In this document: piece by piece, positions 56,698 to 63,737 of the stretch
Numbering within the stretch: the stretch's first letter is position 1
Layout: each line of letters opens with the position of its first letter
Assembly: GCA_023014335.1 (NCBI GenBank)
Contig: JAECYW010000002.1
Location: 4,030,001-4,094,000, forward strand
DNA from: Galerina marginata
Lineage: Eukaryota; Basidiomycota; Agaricomycetes; Agaricales; Galerinaceae
Direction: 5' to 3'
DNA length: 64,000 bases
Program-made: the position numbers and the translations under genes
Notes under the pieces: model-generated
What the model was told of the DNA's origin: nothing
Database searches by the model: none
What the model saw: only the letters and a program-made list of their open reading frames with translations

Positions 56698-57715
56698 GGA
56701 CGCAGGATTCCAATTGTGGTACCGCTCGACCAGGGTCTTCGACTGGGGACATTCCCTGCATACCATTTCAACCCGTCATAACCTAAAATATTGGGTCCCG
56801 ACACGTTTTGTTTTCTCTTATGCCCTCTCTTCATTAAACTTCCAATTACGAGTCAAGGAATCAACGATGTCTCGATCGAGGACACGCAGGAGATAAATCG
56901 ACAGTCATTTGTTATATTGGTCTGTTTCAATTGACTATGTTTATCTCACAAAGCAATCAACCGTCGTCTTATGTCGGCTCGACAAATACGACGACAAGCT
57001 CATAGCTAAAGCGCTCAAGGTTGAAGCCTCCGTGCCAATGAGACGGCATAATATTTGAGGTGCCATCGCAACATAGAATCCTGGAAAGCATGGTCATGGG
57101 CAACCCCAGTAACAAACGTCGTATTCGAGCACCTGTCCGTCTTCAAACCGACTACCTTGGAATTCAATATAACGCTGGCGGGCTGGATACCATACCACGC
57201 TTCTTCCACAGCCATGAGGGCTCGTCGAAGTGAAAATGTCAGCTCATACTTTAGTCACTTCGCCCACTGCTAACATGGTGTTCTAGCCTTTTGGTTGAAT
57301 AGCCTCTCCGGCCTCCCGATATGTATTTCTCCAAGGGGAGGCATCATGGTCCTTCACATCCTTCAAGCCCTTTCCTCTTGTCTGGCGCCTCGAATTTCCT
57401 AGAGGATCTTTTTACGTTTACACTCGTCGATATCGGTTCCCTTTCGTTACTGTCAACCATCTGCCACTGCTGGACCAAGTTGATTTTTACGGGTTCAGAC
57501 TTACTGCTACGTGAAAATGGATGCAGGAGAATCTGCGTTGAATTTACAAGTACAATCATAGCGTCGCAAAAGAAGTCAAAAGGGTCTTTTAATCGAAAAT
57601 TTTGTGAGTTTGATTGGGATGCTGTTTCGTTGATTGTTAGAATGTTCCCTGTCTAAGAACGACGACGACACTCACACAAATGGCCACCGGGATAATAATA
57701 TCTCGGTATGGCAGC
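56698..57715. other. 1.0-kb intergenic region
   Basis: No gene is supported. The minus frame 57015-57215 and plus frame 57321-57656 are open but lack motifs and splice partners. Confidence 0.4.
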
Positions 57716-58006
57716 TCAGGAGCGACCAAACCAACCGCCTCCGCCTCCTCCTCCACCGCCGCCGCCGCCCTGTCCAGGAGCACCAGGGGCACCAGGAGCG
57801 CCTCCAGCACCGCCCGGAGCACCCGGAGCACCTGGCCCGCCTGGCCCTCCCGGCCCTCCAGGAGCTCCAGGAGCGCCTCCACCTGATCCCCCGGGGCCAC
57901 CGGGAGCACCAGGAGCACCCGGCGCACCTCCACCCGAACCGCCGTTACCCGAACCGCCGTTACCCCCCTTGCCACCAAAGCCGAAGAACGACATGTCTCT
58001 ACCCAT
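57716..58006 (-). CDS. collagen-like Gly-Ala-Pro repeat protein, 96 aa
   Basis: A minus-strand frame from ATG 58006 gives 96 residues: a short head MGRDMSFFGFGGKGG, then repeated Gly-Ala-Pro and Gly-Gly-Pro triplets in collagen-like G-X-Y register, a run of 12 glycines and the end WFGRS. No signal peptide is present. The opposite strand is also open (57708-58061, 117 residues) as a Pro-rich protein with the same GAP triplets, because a GGN-GCN-CCN repeat reads as the same repeat on its complement. I favour the minus strand because the other two glycine-tract genes nearby also end or break their glycine runs with Trp, but this is not decisive. Function unknown. Confidence 0.45.
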   Translation of the reverse strand: MGRDMSFFGFGGKGGNGGSGNGGSGGGAPGAPGAPGGPGGSGGGAPGAPGGPGGPGGPGAPGAPGGAGGAPGAPGAPGQGGGGGGGGGGGGWFGRS

Positions 58007-59818
58007 TGGTGAGCAAGCACCTTGCGCATTGATTGAAGTCCTTACCTCTTTTAGTATTTGAGAGTGTATTCGAAATGAGATACGAATGCTGCTTTACCTG
58101 GGGAACTGAAGGATTTTTATAGTCAGGCAAGCATCAACCCGAATTCATGCTTCAGGGTTTACCCGTTATTAAGGGGTCGTTTTAGGACAGCAGGAAAGAA
58201 GAGGTGATTCTCTCGATCTCGTGGTGGTCACGAAGGACGTTAGACGGAGTCTTTTAGTGTACCCGAATCACTCATCGTCGCAGGTAACCATTTACAACTA
58301 CAACTCTCACAGATGTTGTCAGCTGAACGATCTATCTGTGGTCGGCTTCAGATGAGCTCGTCAAGGTAGATGGAGGGTTTGTAGCTTTCGTCTGTCATGT
58401 TTGTAACAGTGTTGTACCTGGTCTTCTCAACAGACTTCCATTCTCTGTTTGAAATGGCGCCAGATTGTACGTCAAATATCGCCATCTTCACTACCATGGG
58501 GTCAGCTGTTAAACGATTTGCATTGTAAGTCGTGGGCTACGCCAGACTCTACCGCTTGTTGGGCCCAGACTCTTTCATTGAAACTGCAGGGTCTCAGTGG
58601 AAAAAGCTAAATTAGTAGACTTGAATCGATCAGAACCGGTTCACTGATGTCTGAACAGGAATACAGGTCGCACTGCGCAGCCGTTTCAAGTTTAGGTACT
58701 GTTCGTGAGATCCCCGGAAGAAATGAGATAAATGGGTAACAATTGACCCGCGTGTGATCCATTCTGCTGGCCTATGACAAAGGTGTTTAGTCATGTGGTT
58801 CTCACATCGCCAGATCGCGGTCATTCAGGATAAGCGCCCGATAAGCGCCGACCAATACCGCTGCGTTCAGTTATCAGTTTGACATATCCCCCAGATGATA
58901 TGCGTCGTATGTGCGCAGATTGCCAATTACACTAAATTTAGTAGCTCTTCTCCGTCAGCCATGATATGATATCTTTGGAAAGAAGTTGAGAAGAGAAACT
59001 CCAGCACCTCACCGCTCACATCCAAAAATGATGATCTACACCGATCATGAATCACCGCATGCCCTCTAATTGTTCCTACTCAGGTCGAAATTAATGCTCC
59101 ATTCAGTTCGGAAATTAAGGGCATGAGACAGGACCTTTTGGAAACCTTTGTATAGACTTGTTCCAATTCGATGAAAGAGCCCCGTAGATGGGATTGCGGA
59201 ATGGGCGTACTGAGCAGAAAATCTGGGGGAGAATCTACGACGGAGTTTGTTGGATTCCATCAGCAGTTTTGGAAGAACGTTACTTCCTGGAGTTGAATCT
59301 AGTCCATTTAAATTTGGGACATAGACACTTTTCAAATCACGGTTTCGCGAAGAGAGATGACCAAGGTCTTGAGCTTCTATTGCGGAAAAGCTGATTGAAA
59401 CATTCTCACAAAGAGCCAGCCTTCTGGTAACGGGCTAATTTTCCGTCAAGGCAAGTGTCAAGTTTGTCAGGTACGAGACTCGTTTATGGCTGATTTTGTC
59501 AGCTGAGCGAAATCCTGATCTATCGACCTCTGGCAAAACACTATGCCAGTCTTCCAGGTTTGACGTATTCTCTATTGTGAACTCTTATCTCGTTTTATCT
59601 AACCTTCTTTGCAAACTGTCAAAGCGATTCGGCAGATAGGTTGGCCGACTCCAAACTCGTGGGGAGGTATTGCGCCTTACATCCGACCACGGATGGTTTG
59701 CCAGATTTATGATGTCCAAAGAATCTCCCAGGGGCTAGATATTGGGTATATAATGGGCTCGATGTCGCTCGTTCAAGATAGGTCCAACACTTAAATCATC
59801 TACTGCATAACAATAGCG
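58007..59818. other. 1.8-kb intergenic region
   Basis: Nothing supported as a gene. The overlapping frames at 59066-59394, one on each strand, have no recognised motif. The frame 59609-59794 is possible leader sequence of the poly-glycine ORF. Confidence 0.4.
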
Positions 59819-59956
59819 ATGGGTCACTTTAGCATTTGTCCTGGTGGCGGCGGTGGCGGCGGCGGAGGTGGTGGTGGTGGTGGTGGAGGAGGAGGAGGCG
59901 GAGGAGGAGGCGGCGGCGGCGGTGGTGGAGGCGGTGGAGGCGGAGGCGGGTGGTAA
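59819..59956 (+). CDS. poly-glycine peptide, 45 aa (36 consecutive Gly)
   Basis: An ATG at 59819 opens MGHFSICP, followed by 36 consecutive GGN codons, a Trp and a TAA. The Gly codons mix GGT, GGC and GGA and are not a simple perfect trinucleotide repeat. The peptide is too short for a normal gene, and the frame could be part of a longer spliced message (one other frame runs on to 60140). It could also be a repeat tract that is open by chance, since a GGN tract cannot create a stop. Its value lies in having the same Gly-run plus Trp pattern as its neighbours at 57.7 and 62.9 kb. Confidence 0.3.
   Translation: MGHFSICPGGGGGGGGGGGGGGGGGGGGGGGGGGGGGGGGGGGGW
59843..59950 (+). repeat. GGN trinucleotide tract (108 bp)
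   Basis: A stretch of 36 GGN units with a variable third base. Similar tracts occur at 57745-57775 (as CCN on this strand) and near 63560-63720. These are the main GC-rich islands in an otherwise AT-leaning right end. Confidence 0.85.
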
Positions 59957-62918
59957 TTCTGTTAGTCCTGTCCCACCCGTTGATCTTGCACATATTAAAC
60001 TTACTACTTCCTACTTGTTAGGTTCGACCCTCCTACCATCGTTTACCGACCAACTTCGACGGGGCAAATTCACGGACCATTTGGTGAGTTCTTGCATTCA
60101 AGTTAAAGCCTTGACTAAATTATTATCACAGGAAACATAAGAAAATCCAAGTCTAAATTGCTTGTTGTATATTTTTGTATTTCAACTTTTGCGCGTCGAG
60201 AATACATATGACTATTCGGAAACTTCTCGTGATTTGATTAAACTTTTCTTTCTTCCAAATTTGAGGGAACAGAGAAAGGTGCAAAATTGCTACCATTAGC
60301 GCCGCTAATAACATTTTATCCATTGCCTCCGCTGAGAGTCCGCTCCCACATCCCAATTTTTATGGGTTTCATGGTTGCCGGTTTTACCGAACATGATAGA
60401 AAGCTTGATTTTAGGAGTCAATATGGAGATGAGCGGCGTAGAAAGCGCAGGTGCACCCTCATTTCTATTGCCCACTAATTGGATGGCACGTCGCAGCAGT
60501 TCAAGTGTTTGCCCGCATATGTTAGACCGTTGGCAACGTGCTGTGCACGAGTTGATTCACCCGGCCACGAAAATGTCATGTACAACATAAATGAACAAAA
60601 AGCCACTGCGAAACAGCTTCGGCATAAATTCCACCGAATGCAGGTCTGTTTACGGATGACGAGACTCACGAGAGTTAAAGTAGTACATTTATTATATGAT
60701 CTGATATCGCTCACTTCAATTTGAAGTCATGGGACTCTTGGGCGTGCATGGGCACCATGCTGTTCTCTTGGTATTAATTTCAGCGTGCGCTATACTCCGT
60801 AAAAGCATACGCCCCTAGATGACCCACTAAGTATCATGATCAATACCCTGTGTCATTTACATCTGGTGATCCACGGAATACTTAGTTCGATGGAAGGAGG
60901 AAAATTATACATGCGAGAGGACATAGGACGCTAATAGTGGAAGAATCCTTCTACTCCGCAGTCAATCGTACTGGTACCGTGAAGTGTTACCAAGTCCGAG
61001 GGTTGATATATTCTCACGTCAACGGGTTTTGGGAATAAGCGCCTACCAGGCGCTTGCAAGTCGTGTTGTATTTTTGCTATCAGCTTGGATATTCTGCCGT
61101 ATGACAGGCGTCATATGGCTGTGGGATATAAATCATGCCAATACGCGTTTATTTTTCCACACCGATGTTGAACACATGAGACAATTGGTCGGCAGGAACT
61201 TGAAGGTGGACGGGCTTCCAAGCAATCTGTCTCCGTCTTCAGAATCTCCCACCTGCGTGGAAATTTCCAGCCAACTAAGAATAGTCTCCCTTCCAATTTT
61301 CAAATTGCTTAGAACAGTAGAGCACTATCCGGGGCATAGTTTATTATTATTCTGAACAAAATATTAGGGAGGTCAGCGGTTTTGAAATAGTTTTCGTTGA
61401 AACGTTTCTGAACGAAAAGTGCAAACTCTCAGAACCATCAACGAGTCAAAAGCAACCCTGGAGTCGCTTTTGGCCTCAGAAACGCGATGCTTGAAATCCG
61501 GTTCTGGCATCCTGTCCTGGATTGATCAAGGATTGATCTGGGCTTCCAAGAACAGGTCTGACATTACAGTGCCTTGCAAGTCACCCCAACGGTTGGGTAA
61601 ATTTCGGCAGTATTTAAACCTTTCTTTCAATACTCGATTAAGGCTAATACAAATTTTTTACTGTGAAGAAATATTTTGATTCCGAATGTTGTGAATTTTC
61701 TTCATGGGGGTGTTACTCGTGGCTGTGCCAAGTGCGCTGATCGCCGTTTTTGGCAGTCGTGCCCTAGTCGTGGCACCGAAGTTGTTGTTCATCATCGATC
61801 CCTGTCGTCGCCGCTGCTGCTCAGCATCCTCGTATCTGGAGCCGCAGCCTACCTTGACATATAGCCAAGCCTCGCGCGAACATTGGTACCGATGATAATT
61901 GGCTACTTTGACTTCATCGATCGGCCTGCATAAAATCGCAACATTGACAGTGACTCAATGACAGAAGAAACTGGTGCTGAGCAGGGACTCAAAAGATGAA
62001 TCTTAATTTTCAGTAAGCAAGTTAGACATTTGGTGTAAGTAAAATCATTATTTCATGTACTTTTCGCTCCCTGAAACTTGTGTTCACAGCTAGAGCCTAG
62101 CAAAGTTGGCCCGTTACCTCGATTCGCATCCCCGTCCCATGTACACTTCTTCGACGTCTCTCTTCAATGCCCATTCCTGGCCGCGAAAAGGGTAGCTGAG
62201 TACTGGTGCTCCCAATCTATTATTTTTTTTTCGCAATCAACTATGACTACCGGTATCAAACTGTCGAACAACGCCTGCGGATCGTTCACAACTTACGGCG
62301 CCGCTGATGGTTCAGTCGAGAACATCCTCATTGACGCTTTTCGAATTCTTTCCTGGATCACCCTAGTCGCTTCCCGTGTCAGTATACCCTTCATGAAACT
62401 TGAAGAAACTCTTTGGGTTCGAGCTCGTTAGTTGAAGGCGAGATTCTTTACTGGCTTTATCGTAAACTCTGTTTCGAACTAATTGCGCCAGCCTGTCTTG
62501 AACAATTACCATATCCTCGTCAGATTTGCTACTCTGCCGCTCCAGAATCTCCAGTCGTGGAATAGCCCGCGCTTCGATCCTCAACATCGCCTTCAACTTA
62601 TCAACTCGACTTGCAAAGCATTCACTGATATCGGTGATTTACGAAGCCAAACCGCTTCCTTTGACAGCACACTGTAAGTACTTATCACCATTCCATTCCC
62701 AATATCCATTCACGGTGTTATCAAAGAAACGTGTTGGCATTCAAACTCGGAGATATAAATGTGCCGAGTGTCAAGCCAAACCAAACCGGTATTGACATAG
62801 CCTATATATACAGAAATCACTTACCGTCAAGTCCACAACTCTGTACGTTTCACTGTCCCGCAGTGTTGAAGGCATATCGAGGTCATCTAACATTTTCGGT
62901 TACTCTTCGTCGTCGTTT
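59957..62918. other. 3.0-kb region without an assignable gene
   Basis: No gene is supported. ORFs at 60479-60724, 60984-61355, 61419-61679 and 61676-61895 lack motifs. At 62078-62677 both strands carry protein-like frames: plus ATG 62243 (TTGIKLSNNACGSFTTYG..) and a minus frame with a helical, charged stretch (LKAMLRIEARAIPRLEILER), interrupted upstream by one TAA. Either could be a gene or a relic; I cannot choose. Confidence 0.4.
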
Positions 62919-63737
62919 ATGCTGACTCGGTCGTCAATAGTTCTTGCGAAAAAAATGGTCGAATCTCGTGGCAATCCCGGGGCACCTGGGACACCTGGGA
63001 CACCTGGCGGGTCAAACACTCCAAATACTGGAGGTAGCACGCCTAGTAGTGGCTCTAGCGGCGGGTGGGGTTGGGGCTTTTGGGGACAAGGAGGGCTGGG
63101 AGGACAGGGAGGCGGCCCTGGCCAGCCCGGTGCACCAGGCGCTCCCGGTGCTCCTGGTGGTCCCGGTGGTCCCGGTGGTCCTGGTGCTCCTGGTGGGGCG
63201 GGCGGATGGGGATGGGGAGGAAATGGTGGCCACGGAGGCGGGTTTGGCGGTGCTCCTGGTGCTCCCGGTGCTCCCGGTGCACCTGGAGGTAACGGCGGTG
63301 GAGGCGGCGGTTGGGGCGGTTGGGGTGGTGCTCCCGGTCAGCCTGGTCAACCCGGTCAGCCTGGTGCTCCCGGTGGCGGTCCTGGCGCCCCCGGTGGTGC
63401 GGGTGGTTGGGGCTGGGGAGGTTGGGGAGGTAATGGGGGCCATGGAGGCCATGGAGGTGGTCCGGGTGCTCCTGGTGCTCCTGGTGCTCCTGGTGGAGGT
63501 GGTTATGGCGGATACGGCGGCTATGGTGGGCCTGGTGCTCCTGGTGCCCCCGGCGCTCCCGGCGCTGGAGGCGGCGGAGGTGGAGGTGGCGGTGGAGGTG
63601 GCGGTGGAGGCTGGAATGGTGGAGGAGGAGGCGGATATGGTGGAGGAGGTGGACATGGAGGAGGAGGTGGCCATGGAGGAGGAGGTGGACATGGTGGATG
63701 GGGTGGATGGGGTGGTGGTGGCGGATCCGGGGCCTGA
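62919..63737 (+). CDS. collagen-like Gly/Trp-rich protein, 272 aa
   Basis: A single-exon frame from ATG 62919 (or ATG 62955) gives 272 residues, with glycine by far the most frequent. After a short basic leader comes GNPGAPGTPGTPGG, then alternating blocks of collagen-like G-X-Y triplets (GAPGAPGAPGG, GQPGQPGQPGAPGG) and Gly/Trp blocks (GGWGWGG, GGWGGWGG). A GGYGGYGGYGG block, a 16-Gly run and GGGGHGG repeats with aromatic residues close it, ending GSGA. No signal peptide is visible, and no Cys. The G-X-Y blocks could form a triple helix; the Gly-aromatic blocks resemble structural glycine-rich proteins. Third codon positions vary, which suggests selection on the protein rather than simple DNA repeat growth. 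Confidence 0.6.
   Translation: MLTRSSIVLAKKMVESRGNPGAPGTPGTPGGSNTPNTGGSTPSSGSSGGWGWGFWGQGGLGGQGGGPGQPGAPGAPGAPGGPGGPGGPGAPGGAGGWGWGGNGGHGGGFGGAPGAPGAPGAPGGNGGGGGGWGGWGGAPGQPGQPGQPGAPGGGPGAPGGAGGWGWGGWGGNGGHGGHGGGPGAPGAPGAPGGGGYGGYGGYGGPGAPGAPGAPGAGGGGGGGGGGGGGGGWNGGGGGGYGGGGGHGGGGGHGGGGGHGGWGGWGGGGGSGA

Follow-up and report, generated by a model that had tools for sequence, protein, structure and literature searches.

Glycine-rich structural proteins are an already known kind of protein, and several described systems invite comparison with the subject of this text, a cluster of ten small genes (g1 to g10) whose predicted products carry long uninterrupted glycine tracts and which begins near the right end of a 64,000-nt stretch of the Galerina marginata genome (contig JAECYW010000002.1, here C12; C12:4030001-4094000, hereafter the window). 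In the antifreeze proteins of Collembola (snow flea type), which are likewise small, Gly-rich and built of G-X-X triplets with Cys, the inward-facing Gly of the G-X1-X2 triplets is described as packing two layers of polyproline-II (PPII) helices (PMC10235112). In gp38 of phage S16 ten Gly-rich motifs joined by short variable segments build a three-layer polyglycine-II (PGII) lattice, for which an 8-Gly helix is quoted; of four other structures containing motifs of this kind, its authors noted in 2019, none had long Gly motifs (PMC6851490). Loricrin, of the epidermal differentiation complex with its linked genes for Gly-rich structural proteins, is reported to form YSGGGGYSGGGG-type loops indexed on aromatic residues (PMC6447390), and plant glycine-rich proteins of the GGX class, as cited, include cell-wall proteins (PMC13243192). 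Among fungi, MCL1 of Metarhizium is described as a collagen-like protein on the cell surface (PMC7348879) and a fimbrial collagen of anther smut was reported as a fungal collagen-like protein (cited in PMC5713455), whereas the fungal polyglycine hydrolases, for which S-V-S-K and Y-S-N motifs but no K-T-G are given, are enzymes and not polyglycine proteins (PMC9912923).

How does the Galerina locus compare? The spacer NGNNGANGANGAPCG of its two-tract proteins resembles the grammar of the Collembola antifreeze proteins as described (PMC10235112). Unlike these, the cluster has pure Gly tracts of 11-40 residues, no signal peptide was seen and no match to the solved structures was found. The likeness of the spacer is to the snow flea antifreeze sequence. 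The pure Gly tracts recall the all-Gly motif GGGGGGGG held in the gp38 lattice, and as a sequence pattern the several tracts of g7 and g6 with their short joining segments are arranged like the Gly-rich motifs of gp38; gp38, however, is a 73-residue domain in the tip of a tail fibre with its 8-Gly motif, whereas the cluster encodes nearly whole proteins of this kind with runs of 36-40 Gly, known as sequence only (PMC6851490). With loricrin and its complex the cluster has in common the linkage of genes and, in part, the indexing on aromatics, but its tracts are purer and longer and no common ancestry is suggested. The GGX, GGY, GGH and GGW blocks of g3 and g4 are like those of the plant proteins, although G-A-P triplets are interleaved with them and a signal peptide was not seen, and in contrast to MCL1 the products are leaderless and mostly Gly-tract proteins. 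A beta-lactamase-like family, to which the polyglycine hydrolases belong, is also found inside the cluster. In the open-licence literature of PubMed Central, no family of linked fungal genes whose polyglycine reaches 40 residues was found among the matches listed.

Extent of the glycine-tract gene cluster

The initial annotation had described three Gly-tract genes within 6 kb, two of them collagen-like, and all three frames are present as described. On the minus strand, g1 (57716..58006 of the window, including the stop codon) encodes 96 residues, MGRDMSFFGFGGKGG...G12-WFGRS, with GAP/GGP triplets and a 12-Gly tract at 57734-57769; its candidate starts are MGRD or MSFF, and allele differences were counted from MSFFG. 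On the plus strand, g2 (59819..59956 including stop) encodes the 45-residue protein MGHFSICP-G36-W, with exactly 36 consecutive Gly (59843-59950). Also on the plus strand, g3 may start at 62919 (272 residues, 62919-63737) or at 62955 (260 residues, 62955..63737 including stop), the second of which has the better ATG context by eye and was used; its collagen-like product, 57% Gly with 13 Trp, consists of G-X-Y triplets and of Gly/Trp, Gly/Tyr and Gly/His blocks and holds a run of 15 GGN codons at 63567..63611 (+). The long Gly run adjoins Trp in all three, with 12 (g1), 36 (g2) and 15 (g3) Gly preceding it.

That what had been called a cluster of three is a real cluster of coding Gly-tract frames is well supported, but three was an incomplete count: g1-g3 are the left edge, and the 20 kb to their right, outside the window, hold g4-g10. 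In the genome analysed (69.3 Mb, 43 contigs) a Gly-tract scan covered 166 kb of C12 and 110 kb of contig C7 and found ten Gly-tract frames on both strands of C12:4087719-4113172 (25.4 kb) and nine in C7:229039-252039. C7 is colinear with the C12 region, with blocks longer than 1 kb mostly 92-97% identical and one at 86%, and would thus represent the other haplotype of a dikaryon. The g1 allele is the frame C7:229036-229422, with the frame kept, and the g3 allele is C7:234316-235107; g8 is without a C7 counterpart, so that copy number varies between the haplotypes. Of the GGN runs with 8 or more codons, every one of the 21 on the 166 kb of C12 lies inside the ten frames, with tracts on both strands, and 19 of the 20 on the 110 kb of C7 lie inside the cluster there. 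In 20 Markov shuffles of the 166-kb C12 stretch the longest GGN run was 3-5 codons, as against 36, 15 and 12 in g2, g3 and g1. The sole other Gly-dense frame in the scan of the fetched stretches is a Ser/Gly/Gln-rich open frame of 1081 residues at C7:288900-292142. In the same stretches the colinearity of the haplotypes ends near C12 4136267 and C7 276860.

To the right of the window, g4 (+, 163 residues) is similar to g3, less surely so at an expectation value (E) of 1.4e-5 in low-complexity sequence, and g5 (+, 90 residues) is a two-tract protein. Since the 34 in-frame residues before MFGFG in g5 differ at five places between the haplotypes, MFGFG was taken as its start, although upstream in-frame ATGs exist. 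On the minus strand follow g6, with the three tracts of MSRYNRY-G11-Y-G11-YY-G40-CRQ, and g7, which begins with MSHYNQH, continues with six Gly tracts (9-32 residues each, with 1-2 residues between them) and ends in RHC; g8 (C12:4108872-4109384), g9 and g10, also on the minus strand, are two-tract proteins with CGGRG11/12 and GGRG13/14. Gly content per gene is 41-83%, with 82-83% in the nearly pure polyglycine of g2, g6 and g7 and 41-56% in g5, g8, g9 and g10. Trp follows a tract in g1-g5 and g9, and Tyr, His or Ser stand beside the tracts of g6 and g7, whereas no aromatic residue adjoins those of g8 and g10.

Coding status, tract architecture and promoters

That the cluster frames behave as translated genes under purifying selection is well supported by the comparison of one haplotype pair, C12 versus C7, over nine of the ten genes (g8 lacking an allele). 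The nine allele pairs differ by 119 synonymous and 26 nonsynonymous codon changes, and the ratio of nonsynonymous to synonymous divergence (dN/dS) is 0.096 in total, 0.054 for codons with Gly and 0.261 for the remaining codons. The synonymous bias, which the initial annotation had proposed to look for, is seen in g1 (10 synonymous, 2 nonsynonymous) and g3 (12 and 3), and all 11 differences across the 45 codons of g2 are silent, as are all 24 across 74 codons of g6; the weakest purifying signal is that of g7 (26 and 8). Silent divergence in Gly codons (0.174) exceeds the intergenic substitution rate (0.042), probably as a result of slippage and of the misalignment that it causes. Because Gly-codon silent divergence is thus probably inflated, the intergenic rate was used as a second yardstick, and nonsynonymous divergence (pN; 0.015 overall, 0.011 in Gly codons) amounts to about one third to one quarter of it. 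The nine coding gaps between alleles, of 3-27 bases, are all multiples of three, as against 12 of 50 gaps in four intergenic stretches, and the free gain of frameshifts that had been named beforehand as contrary evidence was not found between the two haplotypes. The gap sizes alone are a weak argument, as slippage of GGN arrays too favours multiples of three. Compared between the haplotypes, g2 has the same 36 Gly, and the alleles of g1 differ by gaps of 9, 6 and 6 bases and those of g3 by gaps of 27 and 18 bases. From the purifying selection on the frames we infer that they are translated.

Are the ten genes related, as had been proposed for the first three? Within sub-families this holds, namely for g6 and g7, which have upstream sequence in common, and for the two-tract genes g5, g8, g9 and g10; a common ancestry of g1, g2 and g3 found no such support, a g1 query meeting the g3 allele at E 3.1 only. 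Searched against the genome, g9 had 13 matches, and six of these lie away from the cluster, at C14:925250, C7:369755, C30:163828 and C43:137058, 160136 and 184496. The C14 and C7 copies encode the same protein, as do those at C30 and C43:184496, and the six dispersed two-tract copies probably correspond to four loci. Such genome-wide counts are lower bounds, since the best candidates were scored, and a g7 query did not recover g6. The end of colinearity between C12 and C7, together with the pairing of C7:369755 with C14:925250, points to a rearrangement or to a phase switch in the assembly, and the three two-tract copies on C43 are spaced by about 23-24 kb, perhaps by segmental tandem duplication.

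The two-tract architecture is constant: in ten rows, which include alleles and leave out the C30 and C43:184496 copies, the tracts are 11-16 and 13-14 Gly long and the spacer has 32-34 residues. Identical Gly codons stand at 7 of 39 shared positions between g9 and C43:137058 and at 12 of 40 between g9 and g10; chance matching at the tract codon frequencies would give about 31%. The wobble bases of at least two pairs are therefore scrambled and yet the tracts are held, which argues that these tracts are not fresh expansions. To look for slippage, 16 tracts of at least 11 codons were compared with shuffles for identical neighbouring codons. The share of shuffles that reach the observed value is below 0.05 for one (0.013) of the 12 tracts with 11-15 codons and borderline for a 22-codon tract (0.0505), and an excess is found in the three longest tracts. 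Judged from these codon patterns, long tracts appear to slip and short tracts mostly to hold their length.

Upstream of 13 of 14 genes (those of the cluster, ten in all, and four of the six dispersed copies) a TATAWA element lies 72-152 bp before the ATG, whereas in the background 3.4-4.0% of positions have one 70-155 bp upstream. These are not 14 independent events, as g6 and g7, g8, g9 and the C14 copy, and the C43 copies have common upstream sequence. The box of g1, TATAAAAA (58114..58121, -), lies 115 bp before the ATG and is identical on the other haplotype; that of g2, TATATAAT (59747..59754, +), lies 72 bp before the ATG, and that of g3, TATATATA (62803..62810, +), 152 bp before the ATG at 62955, with an additional TATA-like site 201 bp before the same ATG. 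Promoters of the TATA type suggest that an abundant material is expressed here, strongly or under regulation.

Helices, loops and other readings

What could such proteins do? Our preferred reading, held tentatively, is that they are small leaderless structural proteins that associate through PPII/PGII helices, and what we infer about helix type, self-association, cellular place and role is as follows. The G-X-Y and G-X-X stretches and the pure Gly tracts would be two sequence forms of one left-handed PPII/PGII helix, and such helices could pack side by side via backbone hydrogen bonds. All-Gly tracts may then serve as inner helices with neighbours on all sides and G-X-Y stretches as outer helices with X and Y turned toward the solvent, while Trp, Tyr, His or Cys at the tract ends might act as turns, stacking points or cross-links. 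The product would stay within the cell or leave it by an unconventional route. A more specific version, in which cytoplasmic PGII building blocks with Gly tracts inside and a G-X-Y outer face form an ordered fibre, plug or granule, we consider rather doubtful.

Several properties of the proteins bear on this proposal. A signal-peptide-like hydrophobic N-terminus was found in none of the ten genes or the C43 type by a crude hydropathy scan that is not a predictor (11-residue mean at most 0.85, the top value being that of the longer g3 start, as against 2.75 in a neighbouring anchored protein). The longest runs with Gly at every third position comprise 20 triplets in g3, 11 in g4 and 9 in g1, and these blocks alternate with pure Gly blocks. 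With long tracts collapsed, the run of g3 is matched by 1 of 5000 composition shuffles, and likewise that of g10. G-X-Y or G-X-X stretches are short in g5, g8, g9 and g10 and absent from g2, g6 and g7. The description of g1 and g3 as collagen-like is thus apt for the G-X-Y pattern, which extends to g4, but not beyond it: a Pfam scan of g1, g2 and g3 gave no family at E up to 0.1, collagen (PF01391) included, though HMMER filters may hide repeats, and no signal peptide was seen. The stability of a triple helix in g3, g4 and g1 is moreover doubtful because many X and Y positions are Gly.

A number of observations weigh against the preferred reading. The 32-, 36- and 40-codon tracts show the excess of identical neighbours mentioned above, reached by 0.0035, 0.0135 and 0.026 of the shuffles, and tract lengths differ between the alleles of g7 and g6, those of g7 swapping blocks (22, 9, 10, 9, 32, 10 versus 33, 10, 10, 9, 21, 10); from the slippage signature together with the allelic change it follows that exact tract length is not needed in g6 and g7. 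Even within the two-tract type the first tract has 14 or 16 Gly among the C43 copies, and the other four paralogue pairs use the same Gly codon at 16 of 37, 30 of 44, 27 of 41 and 29 of 42 positions, so that they are younger and less informative. The Gly-every-third runs of g5, g4, g8, g9 and g1 are matched by 33-242 of 5000 shuffles and go only modestly beyond composition, and no TATA box was found upstream of g5. AlphaFold2 with single sequences was not confident (mean predicted local distance difference test, pLDDT, 43.6 for g3 and 53.7 for g1), as is expected for disorder too. Sequence searches of the PDB returned Gly linkers, unrelated chains and weak collagen matches but no PPII-bundle protein; the solved PPII-bundle antifreeze proteins were not among 56 PDB matches of the sub-family profile nor the 1 match of g9.

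A second reading we consider a serious possibility, nearly equal in weight to the helices: only the aromatic residues would associate, and the Gly tracts would stay disordered as elastic loops in a cross-linked matrix or condensate of the loricrin type. The x(y)n pattern with aromatic x is followed closely by g6 and g7 (YYG40; YSG9HYG10HSG9YSG32H), and both the varying tract lengths in their alleles and the lack of a confident AlphaFold2 structure would be natural for loops. Loops, however, need neither the two-tract lengths nor the spacer that were held despite strong synonymous divergence, nor a placement of Gly at every third position that exceeds composition in g3 and g10; the tracts of g8 and g10 have no aromatic beside them on which a loop could be indexed, and g6 and g7, with no Lys and one Gln each, lack the Lys/Gln-rich ends of loricrin. 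Fixed short tracts thus favour ordered helices and slipping long tracts favour loops, and a family of mixed type, with helices and loops, is possible. That g3, g4 and g1 are instead classical collagen-like surface proteins, extracellular triple helices in the manner of Metarhizium MCL1 and fungal fimbriae, appears unlikely. It would account for the long stretches of G-A-P, G-Q-P and G-G-P triplets, and the best PDB match of g3 is a collagen chain, if a weak one (E 0.012); a protein search with residues 1-130 of g3 gave, among the best ~8000 candidates, one weak match to a collagen-repeat protein of the green alga Ostreobium (E 8e-3). That no signal-peptide-like stretch was seen, that g1 and g3 gave no Pfam collagen match and that G-X-Y is short or absent in seven of the ten genes speak against it. 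Homologues were found neither with a two-tract member nor with the seven-row alignment A1 among the best ~8000 candidates each, but these protein searches are dominated by low-complexity words and do not show the family to be absent from other fungi.

The remaining two explanations carry little weight. One holds that selection acts on DNA or RNA, by way of a two-tetrad G-quadruplex or a recombination hot spot, or that the tracts are neutral microsatellites, with the frames untranslated. One-strand GGN arrays can form weak G-quadruplexes, a pattern with GG conserved and N free is expected from a quadruplex as well as from a Gly codon, and the slippage signatures in the tracts of 32-40 codons would fit. 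Yet GGG is rare in the tracts, 16 of 325 codons as against 130 of 491 Gly codons in 18 background frames (long open frames whose gene status is unproven). This rarity is at odds with selection for G-quadruplex DNA and agrees with codon choice in translated genes; in addition, the codons other than Gly are conserved as well, each frame extends from an ATG to a stop codon, TATA boxes stand within a limited distance of the frames, and the tracts lie on both strands, so that we give this explanation hardly any credence. The other arises from two tandem beta-lactamase-like genes (PF00144) at C12:4103566-4107704, between g7 and g8 to the right of the window. The two are 52% identical over the exon that was compared, and in C7 the match to the second contains one TAA. 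If they cut polyglycine, the tracts might be their substrates in a substrate-protease system serving as defence decoy, in self/non-self distinction or in turnover, which we regard as very improbable. The first gene has SVSK, the second SLTK and both YSN, as in the S-x-x-K and Y-S-N motifs of the hydrolase, and an exon of the second finds seven matches in the genome, namely both genes, the C7 copies and three pieces at C12:1.54 Mb. These motifs, however, are general for PF00144, the first gene begins with a hydrophobic anchor, and the dispersed Gly-tract copies have none of the seven exon matches near them. The hydrolases have an N-domain of their own ahead of the lactamase-like domain; in the first gene about 100 residues, the anchor included, precede the PF00144 match in the piece read, from a predicted start. 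Among the PDB matches of one piece per gene the solved hydrolase 7tpu did not occur, so the sequence gives no support for the neighbours as polyglycine hydrolases, and their link to polyglycine cleavage is speculative.

Associated features and meaning of the cluster

The opposite strand was checked because GGN tracts read there as polyproline with the same silent positions. Antisense to g1 lies an open frame of 117 residues (57708-58061, +; MAAQERPNQPPPP... / MAAQERPNQPPPPPPPPPPPPCPGAPGAPG...), and the allele data do not decide against it, as GAP codons read as GAP on both strands. Antisense to g8 an ATG stands ahead of the Pro run in a 24-residue piece, and among the dispersed copies on C43 and C14 some have an ATG before the antisense Pro run too; in the eight other cluster genes no ATG was found before the Pro run in the frames listed, and polyproline antisense genes were rejected for these. 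Splicing was considered as well. A splice donor ahead of the g1 start, GTAAGG, was dropped because the other haplotype reads GTCAGG there. An extension of g2 through introns after its TGG codon has donors and acceptors on both haplotypes, but the putative extra exon shows a nonsynonymous excess (2 versus 1 synonymous), and the 45-residue reading was therefore retained. A 5' untranslated intron of g3 (GTACGT...CAATAG) is possible. A donor-like GTAAGT four bases past the stop codon of g6 and g7, and GTGAGT...CACAG at window 60084-60131 downstream of g2, suggest introns in the 3' untranslated regions of these three genes.

The upstream 500 bp of g8 and g9 are 90% in common. From the region upstream of g9, about 300 bp recur at C7:270503-270813 with 76% identity, directly preceding a frame for an L-ornithine/lysine monooxygenase (PF13434; start L028:1924, the recurring stretch being L028:1503-1813), suggesting a shared or captured promoter region. 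Peroxidases (PF00141) have 27 matches in the genome, one exon being closest to solved versatile and lignin peroxidases, and the host is, judging from these genes, probably a white-rot or wood-decay basidiomycete. A role at the septal pore found no support, as septal disordered regions are described in the literature consulted as biased against Gly, and the glycine-rich protein reported from Grifola is an RNA-binding protein of a different family (PMC13413351).

In the accounts available to us, long polyglycine figures mostly as a linker or as what CGG repeats produce in disease. In this cluster at least ten linked genes under purifying selection keep open runs that reach 40 Gly, and the cell thus seems to make, solubilise and use polyglycine purposely. 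The layout, with linked genes for structural proteins of biased composition, is like that described for the vertebrate epidermal differentiation complex and may be a case of convergence. The cluster also bears on what leaderless collagen-like proteins do in fungi and on whether long natural polyglycine forms ordered PGII assemblies, its runs of 36-40 Gly being several times longer than the 8-Gly motif quoted for the gp38 lattice (PMC6851490). If the more specific version, an ordered assembly of cytoplasmic PGII building blocks, holds true, silk and collagen would have a counterpart made of polyglycine.

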